Positions 9,561 to 39,756 of a stretch of 64,000 nt of DNA are shown here, piece by piece (the stretch's first letter is position 1; each line of letters opens with the position of its first letter). Source of the stretch: Sialis fuliginosa (taxonomy: Eukaryota; Arthropoda; Insecta; Megaloptera; Sialidae); the NCBI GenBank assembly GCA_961205875.1, contig OY540822.1:15502501-15566500 (forward strand), written 5' to 3'. The translations under genes were made by a program, and so were the position numbers. The notes under the pieces are model-generated. The model did not search any database. It was not told the origin of the DNA and was given only the letters and a program-made list of their open reading frames with translations.

Positions 9561-10709
9561 TATATAATATTTGGTATATAATATGGGTAGTGTTTAATTA
9601 CATAATTTACAACAATGCACGCGAGATCCTGTTGAATAGATATCTCAGTTTATTTACGAATAGATTTGAATTTTTCTTTAATTAAATTTTAAAAGCACAT
9701 TAATGCTGGAAACACCTAAGATACAATTAACTTTGTATAGAAGACGCTTAGAGGACGGCAAAGATGTAATTGGCCGCATTAAACTTGTTGTTCTGCAAAG
9801 AGATTGTAGTTCACAGCTACCCTTGGCGCAACCCCCAATAATGCATCAAGTAAATAATCCACATATATCACGAGGCAGCCTCTACCCTCCCCCCCTCCCC
9901 CTCCACTCCCTTCTCCCTTCACGCCCTTGTTAAGATCAGTACGACCATGTTAACGCTCTCTACTCTTATCACGGGCCAGTACAGTAAGGTAACATTCTAG
10001 ATTCTAGAGACTACAAACAAAACACAAAATCACCTTATTTAAACATTAATTAGTTTATGTAAACAAAATGGTCGTCCGAAATCAAATAAAAAATTATGTC
10101 TTGAATTCATTGACCTACCCTAATTAGCATCCGGTAGAATAATGCATGGGGGAAAGGTAGAAAAAAAACTACTTAAGGAAAAAGAAACATTTTAAATTTC
10201 TCCTGCAGACATTATATTCTTAAAATGTTTTTAATGTATTTACTTATTTTTACATTAATTCAATTCATGTGGGATTTTAAAATGTAAATTATCGATTTTA
10301 TCATATTTTACATTTTCCTGGAAAATCATTTTATTTTAAATGACGAATAAATTAACCTGAAATTACGGACATTAAATTTTATGTATATATTTTAAATTAT
10401 AAATATTTTTACTAGAATTTGATTTTAATTTTCTGGGGATTTAAAAGTAAAAGTCCCATCTAAATCGGTTTAGTATTTTCGTGTACTGATTTATAAAAAG
10501 TTAAAGTACAATTCAAATTAAATTTAGCCTAGTAACTGTAAATTCTGATAATAGAGTTTGACGTAGTCTGTTAGTTTTTTTTAGTTTTATTTTGTTTCAA
10601 CAACACTTGCCAATATTATTGAAACATTAGAAGAACAATTTGGAGCAACATTGTTAAATTTGTCACATACGTATACATATGTTCGTATGTAGGTATATAT
10701 TATAAGTAC

Positions 10710-11093
10710 CAGCGACGGCTTTAGAGGGGGGGGGGGTGACCGCCCGGGGTGCCAGGCCAGGTGGGGCGTAAGTCTTAATCACGCCAAGCTGCTATATTAA
10801 CTATTCAACTTATTTGTTAATTTATCAATTTTAATTTGTTAATAATAGGGGATGGGGGTCTCGACGGTCTTAGGACATTTGATAGCCTTAAAGTTAATGA
10901 TGTAAGCTATATTTAAAAAAAAGAGGGAGTCTGTAGGATCGCGCCAAGCTGAGATATTAACTATTCAACTTATTTGTTAATTTATCAATTTTAATTGATA
11001 TTTTCGGTGATTTTTTTTAGGGAGAGAGAGAGGGCGGAAAATAAATTTCGCCCAGGGCGCCAGACTAGCTAAGGCCCGCTCTGATAAGTACAT
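10710..11093 (+). mobile_element. Non-autonomous hAT-like element (family D), 384 bp, exact 8-bp TSD
   Basis: The element starts CAGCGACGGCTTTAG and ends CTAAGGCCCGCTCTG. These are imperfect inverted copies of each other (about 11 of 15 match), and CAG...CTG ends are usual for hAT transposons. It is flanked by an exact 8-bp direct repeat ATAAGTAC (10702-10709 and 11094-11101), the target-duplication length of hAT. Just inside each end are G/C-rich subterminal stretches (GACCGCCCGGGGTGCCAG, CGCCCAGGGCGCCAG) that are also roughly inverted. The inside holds two diverged copies of a sequence containing CGCCAAGCTG, ATATTAACTATTCAACTTATTTGTTAA and GTAAGCTATATTT. This sequence is the same family as the 161-bp unit arrayed at 27904-29467. 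No transposase is encoded. Confidence 0.9.
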
Positions 11094-14720: not shown

Positions 14721-16889
14721 TGGTCTGGTTTGAGATACAGATATTTTAAGAGCTGATTCTTTGGTTCATTGTGAGTAAAAATTTGTACGGGAAGGTGGGG
14801 TTTATCTTCAGCACCCTCTGAGCTACAGAGTGTTTAATAATTTACTTCAGAATAGTACTTACAAACAAAGATTATCTCATAACTTCTTAAGTAACGTAAC
14901 TAGAGCAACCACTATGAGTTAGATTCATGGATAATTAATTAACGTATTTTTCAGTATTAGCGTTATATATGTACATACATACATCTTATTATATTTATAT
15001 GACGCGAAGGAAGTCGCGGGTAACAGCTATAATGATAATATAAAAGTAGTGACGTTAAATATAAATAAAAACAAACTTGTTTGTCTAAACGTCAAAATTT
15101 ATTCAAGAAAAGGTAATTGCAAGCTTTCGATTCACAGAATCATCGTCAGGCATATATTTAGTTATTGATATTCAAATAGTTAATTTGAACGAATTATTGA
15201 GATTGTTTTAAAATCGAGAGTTGAAAATAATCGTTTTACGTAAACAAAAAAATAAGTTTATAATAATAAAAATAAAGAAATAATAATAATTGGTCTGGAT
15301 TGGAAACCTTCGGTAAGTGAGTAGTCATAATATGGGTAATTTAACTGGATACTCTTCTTTTTGTCCAACGAACAATATCATCCTTTCAAAAATTATCACT
15401 TCTATTTTTATTTCCTTTCAGTGGAATAATCTTTTGTTAAGGGACAATTTATAACACTGCTATTATAGTAGACTCTTGTATGTCGTTTAATAAAATGATA
15501 TTCCGTTGAAATTGCCTGCTCGGAATTCGTCAAGATAAGCCAAGTGGTACAGTGCTTATTGCCTCTGCCATTCACTTGAATCTTGTTTTGGGTCAGAAAT
15601 TTTATTTACAGTATCATTAATTTTTGTTTACTACCGAAAAGGAACCAGAAAAAAAACTGTTATTATTGATCTCGACCAGTGATATTAAATATGTGCTATG
15701 ATTCTTAACAAAAACCGAATTAACAGATATTTCTTATACGACAATATTTATGAAATAAATATAATATATTAATGTTTCTCAACATGGAAATTTAACAAGT
15801 AATACAATTTTAAAGCAGGTATATAAATAACATTTAACAATGCTATCATTGGAGTAAGGGTGGGGAATATAAACGCTTTGGTACACTTTTTTATTGTAGA
15901 AAAAAACATTTATTTGTAAAATTTACTTTAAATTGGTGTCCCAAGTATATTTTAACCATCCACGAACTGGTACGTCAACACTGAACTAAGCAATATCTTT
16001 GTTGACAAACATTCATGGGTAAAAGTAAATTAATATTAAATTACCATAAACCGAGATACTTTGACAAAAAATAATAGTATATGTCTTATCAAATAGTTAT
16101 TTAAGTGTTAACGAAACATGGTAATAAATTTATACATATACGAGTATGTACAATGCACATATAAGGATATTTTGAAGTATAAAACATGTTATTTTATATT
16201 TTAACTTAATTATTGATTTTTTTAAAGATTAATAAAAAAACATATGCCATATATATACGTACGTATTTTGTAAATTTAAAGAATTGTGACACAAATTACT
16301 AAATACGATAATCATATAACTTTGATAATTGTTTTTTTTTTATTTGACGTGAAAAGTTTTTTTAAAGAATATTATTTCTATATAAATTTTATCTAATATT
16401 TAAAAAAAAAATGGCTTCGAATTTTTTTATATTTATTATATATAAAAGCGGGTAAGTCAACATTAAAAATAATATATGTATATAAATACATATAGATTTA
16501 ATATTTAATATAAAATGAAAATCAGCTTATGTATTATCCAACCGAAGTATAACGGAAAGGTGATTATATATTGTAAGGTACTACTAAATAAATAAAAAAG
16601 CCATAAATGTATTATGTATTGTCCTTCGACGTTAAAAATATATATACCATTAAGCTTACCAGCTCCTTTATCATATATCAAAAGATTTCGTAGCGGGTTC
16701 AATTCTTAATACTCTAATCGCCACTATATTAAATCTCAAACTAATATACTAACCTATGTGGTGGAAGTATAAATGTTTTTATTTATTTATCTTTAATAAT
16801 ATTTAATATATATTTACAAATGCGTGTCTCAATCACGCAAAAATTACAAATCGGATTAACTTATCCTTTTGTATCAGGATAGTAGTATT

Positions 16890-17412
16890 TTGCTTCCTCG
16901 CAATATCGAAGATACGAGAAGCTATGTGATCGTTTTAGATTGAGACAAAAAAAAGTTCTCCAATTTCAAAATTTTAAATTGATTTATCCAAGAAAATTTT
17001 ATAGAATATTTTTTGTAGAACATTAAATTTCCTATAATAAAAAAAAACTACGTTTGTTGTAAAATATTCTCTTACAAAGATTTATCTCAATTTATTTTAA
17101 AAATTCGTGTTTTGTTTTTCTAAATTGATATTTGATTGGATATATTAAATGTCATTTTGACGTTTTAAATGTCATTTTGGCGTTTTAAATGTCACTTTGA
17201 CGTTTTAAATGTCATTTTGACATTTGCATAAATTTAGATTTAGATTGAAATTGTCAAAAAATTAAAAATATATGAAAAAATATTCAGGTGCGTTTTAAGA
17301 AAAATTTCGAACTAAGATTTTTTAGTAAAATTTGTATAAAAATTAAATTGTTAACCAATGCCAGGCAATTTATCTGAACACACAATCACAAAGCTTCTCG
17401 TATCTATATCGC
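16890..17412 (-). mobile_element. Family B TIR element, reverse-oriented copy, about 520 bp
   Basis: The left end TTGCTTCCTCGCAATATCGA through GATACGAGAAGCTATGTG is matched in inverted form by CACAAAGCTTCTCGTATCTATATCGC at the right end, giving long imperfect terminal inverted repeats. The internal part matches the 37143-37811 copy in reverse (for example AAATTCGTGTTTTGTTTTTC and GGCAATTTATCTGAACAC). It has no ORF. Inside are four tandem 20-bp units (17149-17228). It lacks the GACGGAC-rich block of the other copies. Confidence 0.8.
17149..17228. repeat. Tandem 20-bp repeat, four units, inside a family B element
   Basis: The unit ATGTCATTTTGACGTTTTAA occurs four times head to tail, with single-base changes in units 2 and 3 and a different end in unit 4. 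The copies at 27590 and 37320 hold only about two units and one unit, so the number varies between copies of the same transposon. Confidence 0.9.
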
Positions 17413-26740: not shown

Positions 26741-27371
26741 AAATAAGTTAATCTTCTTTCTTTAAGTACTTTTATATTAGATTTGTTTTCTATACATATT
26801 TTCCGTACGCCAATGTAAGTATGTTTGTAAATGTATGTACATCTAGACATGCTACTATTTTGTGATATAGTTTGAAAACAATGCGAATTATATTGTTATA
26901 AACATTGTTTGCAGTCGAAATTTGCATGCATATGTACATATATAGTTTGTGTCTGCTACTATATTTACAGAATAGTTTTTCTTGTTTGAAATTCGAACAT
27001 CCTATACATCGTACACATGCTTCAACTTTGTTTGTCTTTTTTTTTTAGTAAATAAATTCTATTATGATTTACTTTTAATTTTAATTAAAATTAAATATGT
27101 ACAACAAAATTTTAACTATGATTTTTTTCCTAATGTCTACTAAAAAACTTTTTTGAAAAAGAATAAGTTTATAATAATTAAATTTAACAGTTTTTAATGT
27201 AGGTGAAAGCCAATAAATAAAGAAAACGGACTTCAAAAACTGTTAAGTTAAATTATTTTATTTTTTTCAAATTTTTTACTATACTTTTATCTGCATAAGA
27301 TAAAAATTACTCCAGACTAACAGTGTTAGATTTTATAAATAGTTAAAAAACATCTGCCAAGTAAATGCACA

Positions 27372-30013
27372 TTGCTTCCTCGTGCTAAATTCACCAAAGG
27401 TAGTTAATTATTCAATAATTAAAAAAAAAACGATAGTGTTTATATAAATTGCCTGGAATTGGTTAACCATTTAATTTTTATACAATTTTACTAAAAAATA
27501 TTAGTTAGAAATTTTTCTTAAAACGCACATGATTATTTTTTCATAATTTTTAATTTTTTGGAAATTTCAATCTAAATCTAAATTCATGCAAATGTCAAAA
27601 TGACATTTAAAACGTCAAAATGACATTTAATACTATATATCCAAGCAATATCAATTAAGAAAAACAAAACACGAATTTTTAAAATAAATTGAGATAAATC
27701 TTTGTAAGGGAATATTTTACAACAAACGTTGTAGACCCATATTATAGGAAATTTAATGCTCTACAAAAAATATTCTATAAAATTTTCACGTAACGTGTCG
27801 TTCTTAAGATATCTTGAAAAAATAAATATTTTGGCATGTCACCCCTCTCCATTACACACGATTTTGAAATGGGGCTAGGATAGGAGCTATATTTAAAAAA
27901 AAACTGGAGTCTCCTCGATCGCGCCAAGCTGACATATTAACTATTCAACTTTTTTTTTTTAATAGCCGAAACTGGAGTCTCCTCGATCGCCCCAAGCTGA
28001 GATATTAACTATTCAACTTATTTGTTAAATTTTCAATTTAAATTTCTTAATAATAGCCGAAGGAGCATACGAAGGTCTTCGGGCATTAGATAGTCTTAAA
28101 GATAATGGTGTAAGCTATATTTTAAAAAAAAACTGGAGTCTCTTCGATCGCGCCAAGCTGACATATTAACTATTCAACTTATTTGTTAAATTTTCAATTT
28201 AAATTTCTTAATAATAGCCGAAGGAGCATACGAAGGTCTTCGGGCATTAGATAGTCTTAAAGATAATGGTGTAAGCTATATTTAAAAAAAAAACTGGAGT
28301 CTCTTCGATCGCGCCAAGCTGACATATTAACTATTCAACTTATTTGTTAAATTTTTAATTTAAATTTCTTAATAATAGCCGAAGGAGCATACGAAGGTCT
28401 TCGGGCATTAGATAGTCTTAAAGATAATGGTGTAAGCTATATTTTAAAAAAAAACTGGAGTCTCTTCGATCGCGCCAAGCTGACATATTAACTATTCAAC
28501 TTATTTGTTAAATTTTCAATTTAAATTTCTTAATAATAGCCGAAGGAGCATACGAAGGTCTTCGGGCATTAGATAGTCTTAAAGATAATGGTGTAAGCTA
28601 TATTTTAAAAAAAAACTGGAGTCTCTTCGATCGCGCCAAGCTGACATATTAACTATTCAACTTATTTGTTAAATTTTCAATTTAAATTTCTTAATAATAG
28701 CCGAAGGAGCATACGAAGGTCTTCGGGCATTAGATAGTCTTAAAGATAATGGTGTAAGCTATATTTTAAAAAAAAACTGGAGTCTCTTCGATCGCGCCAA
28801 GCTGACATATTAACTATTCAACTTATTTGTTAAATTTTCAATTTAAATTTCGTAATAATAGCCGAAGGAGCATACGAAGGTCTTCGGGCATTAGATAGTC
28901 TTAAAGATAATGGTGTAAGCTATATTTCAAAAAAAAACTGGAGTCTTCGATCGCGCCAAGCTGACATATTAACTATTCAACTTATTTGTTAAATTTTCAA
29001 TTTAAATTTCTTAATAATAGCCGAAGGAGCATACGAAGGTCTTCGGGCATTAGATAGTCTTAAAGATAATGGTGTAAGCTATATTTAAAAAAAAAACTGG
29101 AGTCTCTTCGATCGCGCCAAGCTGACATATTAACTATTCAACTTATTTGTTAAATTTTCAATTTAAATTTCTTAATAATAGCCGAAGGAGCATACGAAGG
29201 TCTTCGGGCATTAGATAGTCTTAAAGATAATGGTGTAAGCTATATTTAAAAAAAAAACTGGAGTCTCTTCGATCGCGCCAAGCTGACATATTAACTATTC
29301 AACTTATTTGTTAAATTTTCAATTTAAATTTCTTAATAATAGCCGAAGGAGCATACGAAGGTCTACGGGCATTAGATAGTCTTAAAGATAATGGTGTAAG
29401 CAATATTTAAAAAAAAAACTGGAGTCTCTTCGATCGCACCAAGCTGACATATTAACTATTCAACTTATTTTTCAAAATAACATTTAAAACGTCAAAATGA
29501 CATTTAATATATCAATTTAGAAAAACAAAACACGAATTTTTAAAATAAATTGAGATAAGTCTTTGTAAGGGAATATTTTACAACAAACGTAGTAGACCTA
29601 TATTATAGGAAATTTAATGCTCTTCAAAAAATATTCTATAAAATTATCTCGTAAAATGTGTCGTTCTTGAGATATCTTGAAAAAAGAAATATTTTGGGGT
29701 GCCACCCCTCTCCCTTACACACGATTTTGATGATTTTGAAATGGGACCGTCCTCAAACCAAACCCAACCATCCGACCAAGTTTCAATAATATCGGTTCAC
29801 TGGTTCATGAGTTATGCGTGTGACAAGGATTCAGGGGACAGACGGACGGACGGACGGACACACGGACAGACAGACAGACACGGAACGAAAAGTGTTTGTC
29901 TTGACGTGAAACGGATAAATCAATTTAAAATTTTGAAATTGGAGAACTTTTTTTTTGTCTCAATCTGAAACGATCACATAGCTTCTCGTATCTTCGATAT
30001 TGCGAGGAAGCAA
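27372..30013 (+). mobile_element. Family B TIR element, enlarged copy carrying a 161-bp satellite array
   Basis: The left edge TTGCTTCCTCGTGCTAAATTCACC and the right edge ending CTTCGATATTGCGAGGAAGCAA are inverted at their outermost 11 bp. The same parts flank the shorter copy 37143-37811. Family B sequence runs from 27372 to about 27872, then the 161-bp array, then family B again from about 29471. The segment 27597-27872 and the segment 29471-29745 are copies of one another, so the array lies between duplicated pieces of its host. The right part holds a GACGGACGGACGGAC run (about 29839-29880) and an open frame across it that is not conserved. No target duplication could be recognised, and the left limit may extend further left. 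Confidence 0.75.
27904..29467 (+). repeat. Tandem array of a 161-bp unit, nine full periods plus partial ends
   Basis: The word CTGGAGTCT begins units at 27972, 28133, 28294, 28455, 28616, 28777, 28938, 29097, 29258 and 29419. Spacing is 161 bp each time except one of 159 bp, where TC is missing. A truncated unit (68 bp) precedes them and about 49 bp of another follows. Each unit contains TCGATCGCGCCAAGCTGACA, CTATTCAACTTATTTGTTAA, AGCCGAAGGAGCATACGAAG and GGTGTAAGCTATATT plus an A run. Units are nearly identical, which indicates recent amplification or homogenisation. Related sequence occurs twice inside the hAT element at 10710-11093. Confidence 0.95.
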
Positions 30014-37120: not shown

Positions 37121-37142
37121 GAGTTAATATATTAAAAAACAT

Positions 37143-37811
37143 CTTTCCTCGTGCTAAATTCACTAAAACCGATAGTGTTCAGATAAATTACCTGGCATTG
37201 GTTAACCATTTAATTTTTATACAAATTTTACTAAAAAATCTTAGTTATAAATTTTTCTTAAAACGCACCTGAAATATTTTTAATTTTGTGACAATTTCAA
37301 TCTAAATCTAAATTTATGCAAATGTCAAAATGACATTTAATATATCCAATCAAATATCAATTTAGAAAAACAAAACACGAATTTTTAAAATAAATTGAAA
37401 TAAATCTTTGTAAGGGAATATTTTACAACAAACATAGTAGACCCATATTATAGGAAATTTAATGCTCTACAAAAAGTATTCTATAAAATTTTCTCGTAAC
37501 ATGTCGTTCTTGAGATATCTTGAAAAAATAAATATTTTGGGGTGTCACCCCTCTCCCTTACACACCGTCTTCAAACCAAACCCAACCATCCGACCAAGTT
37601 TCAATAATATTGTTTCAGTGGTTCATGAGTTATGCGTGTGACAAGGATTCAGGGGACAGACGGACGGACACACGGACAGACACGGAACGAAAAGTGTTTG
37701 TCTTGACGTGAAACGGATAAATCAATTTAAAATTTTGAAATCGGAGAACATTTTGTCTCAATCTGAAACGATCACATAGCTTCTCGTATCTTCGATATTG
37801 CGAGGAAGCAA
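37143..37811 (+). mobile_element. Family B TIR element, about 670 bp, no array
   Basis: The element runs from CTTTCCTCGTGCTAAATTCAC to TTCGATATTGCGAGGAAGCA. It matches 27372-30013 in the same orientation without the 161-bp array and without the duplicated block, so it shows the ancestral arrangement. It has one 20-bp ATGTCAAAATGACATT unit (about 37320) and a shortened GACGGACGGACACACGGAC tail block. A minus-strand open frame crosses its right part but is not preserved in the other copies. Confidence 0.8.
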
Positions 37812-38455: not shown

Positions 38456-39258
38456 GGAAAATTAGTATTTTGGTATTTTTTGATAACTTAATCGGTGAAA
38501 ATAATTATATATTTTATTATTGAGAACAACATTTCTAATTTACAGGATGTTTACGTTTTGAATAAATACACTGTTATTGAAACAATTTTCTATCATAAAC
38601 TAGGAATATATATGATAATAAATACAGACAGAATAAATTATCACCGAGCGTGCAGATTCATATTTTCCTTCTATTATTTCAATCTCTTTTATTAATATTC
38701 ACATACACATTTTAATGATTTTCCTATTCATAGCGAAGCGTAATTTTTTACAATAATTTTACAATTAGAGTGATATTACTTTTTTTATTTTTTTCCCTGG
38801 ATTTACATCAGTGATTCTTAACTGGTGTTGTAAAAATTCAAATTAATCTAACACAATTTTTTTAAATCATTGAAGGTTAAAAGAAACATATTTTTTAATT
38901 CATATAAATTTTTGAATTTTTTTTTGAAATGGTGTGAATAATAAGAAAGTCCGGTGGTACTTTTTGACTGTACCATAATAATATTCGAGTTGGCTTATTG
39001 CTACTATATAGACAGTTTACTATTTGGTCGTACTGTACATATATATTAGTGAAGTATACTGTATATGGGGGCATTGTAGTTGGCAACATTGCTAATACCT
39101 AGTGTGCTTTGGTATTTACATTAGTGTGAAAGTTTCTGAGCCCCCATTACCGAGTCAGGTCTTCGGTCAAATCCTTTTCAATGTTAAAACCGTATTGATG
39201 TTGTTACAAACTGAATTTAAGGGATTCAGTAAAAATACATTACTTATTATGTAAAAAA

Positions 39259-39756
39259 TTATGCAGGTGTTGTTATCAGATAAGAATATTGAAACAATAT
39301 CTTGACGAGCACCAGTTGATGGCTTACTATTACGCACATGTTTACTCTGCAATGAGGTATGGTATCCTTCTGTGGGGAAGTACTTCAGAGGCTGGAAGAG
39401 TGTTTGTTATACAGAAAAAAATTTTAAGACTAATTTTTAATTATGATCAAAAAAAATCGCTTAGAGGTATTTTTAAAACTAACAATTTATTAACTATTTA
39501 TGGTATATATGCAACAGAATTATTAAAAAATATCAAAAGCAAAAAAGAAGAAAGGAAAATTGCAAATTATGACTTTAGAGGTAGAATTCAAGAGATATAC
39601 CATAAAACTACCTTTTATGAAAGATCTCCAGATTATATGTATAACAAACTTATAAACACTCTTCCTGGCATATTAAAAACCTCAAAAACATACAAAATAC
39701 ATTTAAAGCAGTACTTCATAATGAAGGAACCATACAGCATTGCTGAGTGCTATTAG
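39259..39756 (+). pseudogene. LINE (non-LTR retrotransposon) reverse transcriptase, 3' fragment
   Basis: This is the last part of an ORF2-type polyprotein of a non-LTR retrotransposon. The readable frame covers about 165 codons ending at TAG (39754-39756), with no ATG start. The first residues (C-Y-x-I-R-I-L-K-x-Y-L) lead into A-Y-Y-Y-A-H-V-Y-S-x-M-R-Y-G-I-L-L-W-G and then R-V-F-V-I-Q-K-K-I-L-R-L-I-F. This is the conserved post-palm (thumb) region of CR1/Jockey-like reverse transcriptases: tyrosine-rich helix, RYGIxxWG, QKKxxR. The catalytic palm and the endonuclease are absent, as expected from 5' truncation on insertion. The frame is still open, so the insertion is fairly young. The exact clade cannot be decided from this piece. 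Confidence 0.85.

Follow-up and report, generated by a model that had tools for sequence, protein, structure and literature searches.

The 161-bp tandem array between 27 and 30 kb of the window (the whole analysed stretch of 64,000 nucleotides of Sialis fuliginosa DNA, C14:15502501-15566500) probably belongs to one copy of a multicopy, protein-less, non-autonomous Helentron of the HINE/DINE-1-like type. The element, assigned to family B, has the order 5'-R-D2-(161 bp)n-D1-L-3', and its founder is likely to have arisen by the fusion of two subfamilies and to have spread afterwards.

Anatomy of the array-bearing element and its recurrence

The components of the element and the related copies in the window are listed in Table 1. 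The array was located by TRF at 27969-29470 (period 161, 9.3 copies, 98% matches), and a partial, internally deleted unit at 27885-27968 stands ahead of the TRF-called part. The nine full units have a mean pairwise difference of 1.4%; the first and the last depart from the majority at 3 positions each and the others at 0-2, to which one 2-bp deletion has to be added. The array starts at unit phase 144 and ends at phase 54, the latter value being read by eye where the automatic edge finder gave 73. An array composed of a whole number of units, as left by the integration of a circle, is ruled out by these edge phases.

Table 1. Parts of the array-bearing element and related copies in the window (positions and strand of the window sequence)
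Feature	Position	Strand	Remarks
Complete array-bearing family B element, HINE-like	27345..30013	-	2669 bp; 5' end 30013, 3' end 27345; aligned ends
5' subTIR TGCTTCCTCG	30003..30012	-	1-3 nt from the 5' terminus, depending on the Ts counted
Inverted repeat CGAGAAGC, complementary to the 5' subTIR	29981..29988	-	potential hairpin; DNA fold
(GTCY)n microsatellite of the 5' module (GACR on the + strand)	29837..29879	-	TRF
D2 module, second copy of the duplicated stretch	29472..29747	-	alignments, trees, diagnostic columns
Central 161-bp array	27885..29471	-	partial deleted unit, nine full, last partial; TRF, unit phases
9-bp linker TAGGATAGG between D1 and array	27876..27884	-	also in L055 and L056
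D1 module, first copy of the duplicated stretch	27597..27875	-	alignments, trees, diagnostic columns
3' subTIR	27373..27382	-	28 nt inside the 3' T-rich end
L module with 3' end	27345..27594	-	long-form L clade, 7 rows
Array-free (short-form) copy, single D	37134..37811	-	alignment
Third family B copy, short-form, internally deleted (~16.89-17.41 kb), opposite orientation	16889..17411	+	alignment
hAT-like MITE, 1.37 older units	10710..11083	.	8-bp TSD; alignment; separate element

The preliminary description had placed this array between two blocks of about 275 bp, both copies of a stretch found once in an array-free copy of the same element, and both statements were confirmed. The blocks align directly with each other (29472-29730 versus 27595-27867, 88% over 275 columns, E 6e-99), and the array-free copy holds a single D, with 27426-27859 matching 37165-37565 and 29487-30013 matching 37320-37811, each at about 86%. 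The argument that a plain insertion fails to explain a duplicated stretch of the host element is likewise upheld. The location of the array inside a mobile element also stands, whereas the bounds given for that element had to be moved, as its left end lies beyond the apparent TIR, at 27345, with an A-run plus CATCTGCCAAGTAAATG common to other copies. In the alignment of ends, 18 right-end rows align at GCAA, and 12 of the 15 left ends begin with A(n)CATCTGC or a close variant, beyond which the flanks differ; the 37-kb copy is deleted just inside its left end. D1 and D2 differ at 24 of 273 compared columns, edges counted, and the single D at 37 kb differs from them at 25 of 270 and 27 of 259 columns, respectively. 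The divergence between D1 and D2 is thus about that of either from the 37-kb D, a first hint that the duplication may be as old as the family.

The genome search covered 392 Mb in 20 contigs, nearly all of it in 14. Family B is abundant, with 1990 first-look candidates for the D stretch, 40 of which were scored. The preliminary description had called for a search for other family B copies carrying the 161-bp unit. The junction query (27835-27965), within which the 9-bp linker lies, was spanned from D1 into the unit in 40 of 40 scored loci, the window included (94-100%, best 40 of 283); at least 39 other loci therefore match both D1 and the unit, at 94-97%. This recurrence makes an assembly artefact at the window locus unlikely, as far as can be judged from the assembly itself. 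The array/D2 junction was spanned by two other loci among 40 scored of 1208 candidates.

Seven loci, L051-L057, were fetched from the D-stretch and the two junction searches. Two of them, L055 and L056, are complete copies running from A(n)CATCTGCC to GCGAGGAAGCAA in the order L-D1-(161)n-D2-R, and their flanks differ from those of the window copy. Array length varies between copies (2.4 units in L055, 3.4 in L056, about 7 in L053 and about 9.4 in L054), and the order of the parts is common to other loci. No L module was found within the fetched stretches of L053 and L054; L051 and L052 are without D1, and L057 reads array-D1-array-D2-R, with a further D1 located about 150 bases beyond its end (upstream). 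Outside the junction list there are 17 D1 loci, and all 12 of those fetched carry units beside D1, so that D1 without an array was not seen among these 12. The D1/array junction at 39 loci, the array/D2 junction at two and the module-specific bases of D1 and D2 indicate that the layout predates the spread of the family. What looks like a striking local arrangement can thus be the standard anatomy of a repeat family, which calls for caution.

Origin of the two D modules

The D set comprises 46 rows, of which 38 were counted (22 D1, 8 D2, 3 Y and 5 Z) and 8, short or unlabelled, were set aside. Y and Z are labels coined here for two groups of short forms, Z being the older ones. The first tree groups five of the six D1 in a clade (98/94) that excludes D2; the D1 fragment of L054 falls outside it. 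The nearest relative of the window D1 is the D1 of L055, and that of the window D2 is the D2 of L056. The best larger tree, whose bootstraps had not settled, has D2 and Y together on one side (68/78). Forcing D1 and D2 together costs 16.8 lnL units (p-AU 0.185), so a D1+D2 clade is not rejected, and D1 is no strict clade among its 22 rows, requiring 4 changes (p-AU for one clade 0.444). At two diagnostic columns, 20-22 of 22 D1 agree in their base with 4 of 5 Z, whereas 6-8 of 8 D2 agree with 3 of 3 Y. The indel at columns 147-150 is opposite, with D1 agreeing with 2 of 3 Y and D2 with 4 of 5 Z; the remaining columns are mixed. The 7 long-form L rows form a clade (95/96) that excludes the other 5 rows, Y and Z alike, and the long-form R mixes with Y (86/92, unstarred).

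Judged from these alignments, the two D modules are old and distinct from each other. The data favour a fusion of two subfamilies around a piece of satellite only moderately over a duplication within one element: the diagnostic columns, the grouping of D2 with Y and the affinities of L and R speak for it, whereas the contrary indel, the unrejected D1+D2 clade and the position of long-form L, which groups with neither Y nor Z, speak against it. Under the fusion reading, the founder would have arisen in a single event that joined the 5' half from one HINE subfamily to the 3' half from a second one, the joining piece presumably being a fragment of a pre-existing 161-bp satellite. Since both halves would have held the D stretch, D would now flank the array. 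Template switching is one possible route, rolling-circle read-through beyond a lost 3' end another. The composite would then have spread by transposition, and unequal exchange would add or remove units in its copies, and occasionally an entire D+array block.

The alternative founder, of which the same data allow a tentative version, is a single element in which D was copied twice, with satellite sequence filling the space between, by template switching or during staggered-break repair, before the element spread. Tandem duplications after staggered breaks are described in the cited parts of PMC5730883 and PMC7407515. Unit and D overlap by 3 bp (TGT) where the array meets D2 in L055 and L056, which fits such an event, as do the 9-bp linker on the D1 side of both copies, the unrejected D1+D2 clade and the indel at 147-150, which misfits the fusion. 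However, two columns tie D2 to Y and D1 to the older forms, and L and R differ in affinity, so that this origin is possible but doubtful.

Class of the element

By its structure the element is best read as a non-autonomous Helentron of HINE-like form. On the minus strand it successively contains TT, the subTIR TGCTTCCTCG, the complement CGAGAAGC, (GTCY)n, D2, the array, D1, a second subTIR and a T-rich end. In its cited part, PMC4067079 names as traits of HINE/DINE-1 elements subTIRs, an inverted repeat (IR) beside the 5' subTIR, T-rich ends and high copy number; the window family resembles them in all of these, and also in its microsatellite, its central repeats and the lack of a visible target-site duplication. 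The following features were found: (i) the subTIR has 4 exact matches in the window, all at the ends of family B copies, where shuffles give 0.00 expected, and an inverted repeat near the 5' end has a subterminal 3' partner; (ii) identical subTIR positions amount to 11 bp in the window copy and 10 in L055 and L056, the HINE family criterion in the cited part of PMC4067079 being 11; (iii) an IR complementary to the 5' subTIR is present, and the hairpin GCTTCCTCG...CGAGAAGC is predicted at -5.5 kcal/mol (z -1.2, with 24 of 200 shuffles equally good); (iv) the 5' ends give TT in 18 of 18 right-end rows, and intact 3' ends run into T runs; (v) a microsatellite (29837-29879) and central tandem repeats (27969-29470) are present, both common, though not universal, in HINEs according to the cited part of PMC7492417. 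Near the 3' end, L055 and L056 have only a 9-bp imperfect palindrome, GCACTGTGC, and shuffled sequences fold as well as the three 3' ends examined for a stem-loop. Visual inspection of the three window copies and of L055 and L056 revealed no target-site duplication, and a single empty-site query returned only its own two flanks.

Differences from the HINE/DINE-1 elements of PMC4067079, as described in its cited part, lie in the direct-repeat frame of about 275 bp, the weak 3' palindrome and the lack of a linked autonomous partner; the 3' subTIR is 28 nt from the end here, compared with 38-60 nt in mite families. The genome contains Helitron-like Rep domains (30 matches to PF14214). At the two best Rep loci (frames of 1675 and 1660 aa; 2 of the 30 matches), no family B end motifs were found in the 9.9 kb examined. 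The HINE-like class is accordingly given by structure, as most HINE/DINE-1 traits are present and the end motifs are absent from these two loci; the autonomous partner is unproven. The two intact Helitron-like loci with frames of these lengths, L077 and L078, are nearly identical (99.4% over 9.8 kb) and are perhaps a duplicated block.

Short satellite-like arrays are also carried by the Cg_HINE elements of the Pacific oyster (PMC7492417), where repeats of 160-180 bp dominate. The two systems are further alike in the GTCY-type microsatellite of the 5' module, in a variable repeat number and in repeats some of which also occur as classical satellite. They differ in that no direct-repeat frame is described in the cited part of that account, the comparison being one of descriptions. 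A non-exhaustive literature search found no Helentron with a central array enclosed by direct repeats of the element body.

The preliminary description regarded the element as a TIR transposon; family B would then be a MITE that captured the satellite by gap filling, as in Pack-TIRs. This is unlikely. A 10-11 bp inverted repeat does lie near both ends, a longer one is present in the 17-kb copy, and the capture of foreign sequence between element ends by template switching, to which the present case is alike, is described for Pack-TIRs in animals (PMC8277862, cited part). However, only one arm of the inverted repeat is terminal, the other lying 28 nt inside, in disagreement with a TIR/MITE, and no target-site duplication was visible. 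HINEs are the better fit for the T-rich ends, the (GTCY)n microsatellite and the IR next to one subTIR, and the family, in contrast to Pack-TIRs, has ends that are not of TIR type and is a multicopy composite.

Searches of the window against phages, IMG/VR contigs and prokaryote genomes gave no match, Rfam gave nothing at gathering scores, and Pfam nothing for five open frames of the window. The longest stop-free frame (39199-39753, 185 aa) is retrotransposon-like by eye and has no Pfam match.

Unit haplotypes, free arrays and possible exchange

The 161-bp unit has at least 239 matches in the genome (40 of 296 candidates scored), and 32 separate clusters of units are present among the matches listed. 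On the basis of the unit search, 27 array loci were fetched besides the window. In 8 of them, element sequence lies directly at an edge; in the other 19 none was found at either edge, and these are regarded as stand-alone arrays. The link between mobile element and satellite claimed earlier is therefore upheld, the same repeat being present in the element and in free arrays. A chance contact of arrays with family B was considered for four of the first 20 loci and rejected; these four would be remnants of array-bearing copies.

The preliminary description also took this locus to show how a mobile element may seed a satellite, a reading not supported in view of older unit types outside the element, 75-85% identical (the MITE at 10.7 kb, L032, L042 and L063). 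Because of these units, the 161-bp repeat family seems to predate the array-bearing form of the element. The MITE (374 bp, window 10702-11091) is flanked by the 8-bp duplication ATAAGTAC and contains 1.37 older units. Its 5' end is common to at least 39 other loci (40 of 207 candidates scored), where matches stop near base 60, before the unit; the unit as an internal part of this MITE family was rejected on these grounds. The MITE is labelled hAT-like from the 8-bp TSD and the shared end, since the alignment of its TIRs is no better than that of random pairs (431 of 500 as good).

Unit positions 95, 99 and 100 distinguish two haplotypes. All nine window units carry ATA. The 18 copies found by junction or D1 carry CCT in 50 of 65 units, and 4 of the 65 have A at position 100. 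The free arrays carry ATA in 84 of 161 units, and 123 of the 161 have A at position 100; older-type units and one from the hAT-like MITE are counted in these totals. Since likeness to the window unit was the criterion for the free set, its composition is biased, whereas the junction-chosen set is independent of unit type, and the haplotype contrast rests on the latter set for this reason. Both haplotypes occur in element-borne and in free arrays, and both kinds of unit are present within L058, which is at once a unit-search and a junction locus, and within L060. These patterns suggest that the window copy consists of a standard element frame with a free-type array, and hence that exchange between element-borne and free satellite has taken place.

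Among the matches listed, 27 of 32 unit clusters, which are the arrays most like the window unit and include the window and some element-borne arrays, lie within 5 Mb of a chromosome end, as against 13 of the 40 junction loci scored (Fisher p 1e-5). Wherever a chromosome has more than one of the clusters listed, they lie in the same half, C3 excepted. About 1.3 Mb separate the window from the end of C14.

In Drosophila, the central tandem repeats of the DINE element DINE-TR1 reportedly also form a satellite, a likeness of description. Satellite-bearing Helentrons are already known, and their exchange with free arrays has already been proposed. In the cited part of a 2025 review (PMC12628747), the oyster repeat Cg170/HindIII occurs in element-borne, one-sided and free forms, with recombination proposed as the cause. 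By analogy, the present case is of the same kind, with element-borne, one-sided and stand-alone arrays of one repeat; it differs from that account in that the commonest haplotype is not the same in element-borne and free units. The recognisable D1/D2 frame and the distinguishable unit haplotypes should make the direction and rate of exchange measurable in one chromosome-scale genome.

It may be speculated, at low confidence, that the D frame turns the array into a movable cassette. Recombination between D stretches or units would pop out or add a D+array block, D-bearing copies would serve as landing sites, and the window copy would be an exchange caught in the act. If this is true, one family carries a satellite back and forth between scattered transposon copies and the arrays near chromosome ends, and keeps both in exchange. 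The more specific version, in which D+array blocks move as circles formed by D-D recombination and integrate into other copies by D homology, is slightly less probable again. The occurrence of both haplotypes in element and free arrays accords with it, as does L057, which together with the D1 just upstream reads D1-array-D1-array-D2, but unequal crossing over explains L057 equally well. The 37-kb copy also tells against circles: it alternates D1-like and D2-like bases with no single switch point, and is thus no simple excision product of the window copy. The same alternation led to the rejection of the 37-kb copy as a product of recombination between the window D1 and D2.

That unequal exchange, slippage or the capture of a circle made the layout locally, as the preliminary description supposed, is very improbable and in effect refuted, provided that the 39 other loci are not segmental duplicates of this one. 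Only the window array, among 21 compared, has a direct repeat adjoining both edges, but the D1/array junction recurs at the 39 other loci, and the variants specific to D1 and to D2 are retained from locus to locus. The two loci read in this respect, L055 and L056, have different flanks.

Some further arrays have peculiar surroundings. Direct repeats are found at L041 too, further out from the array. At L038 the flanks of the array form an inverted repeat (48 bp, 96%), as if the array had been inserted in a palindrome. The arrays of L044 and L047 both end at phase 129, and their right flanks are alike by eye. The free arrays L032 and L034 have edge phases of 142 and 52-54, near those of the element array, and are without element flanks; the chance of this coincidence is about 3e-4, a value that assumes 26 loci although edges were measured at 20 others.
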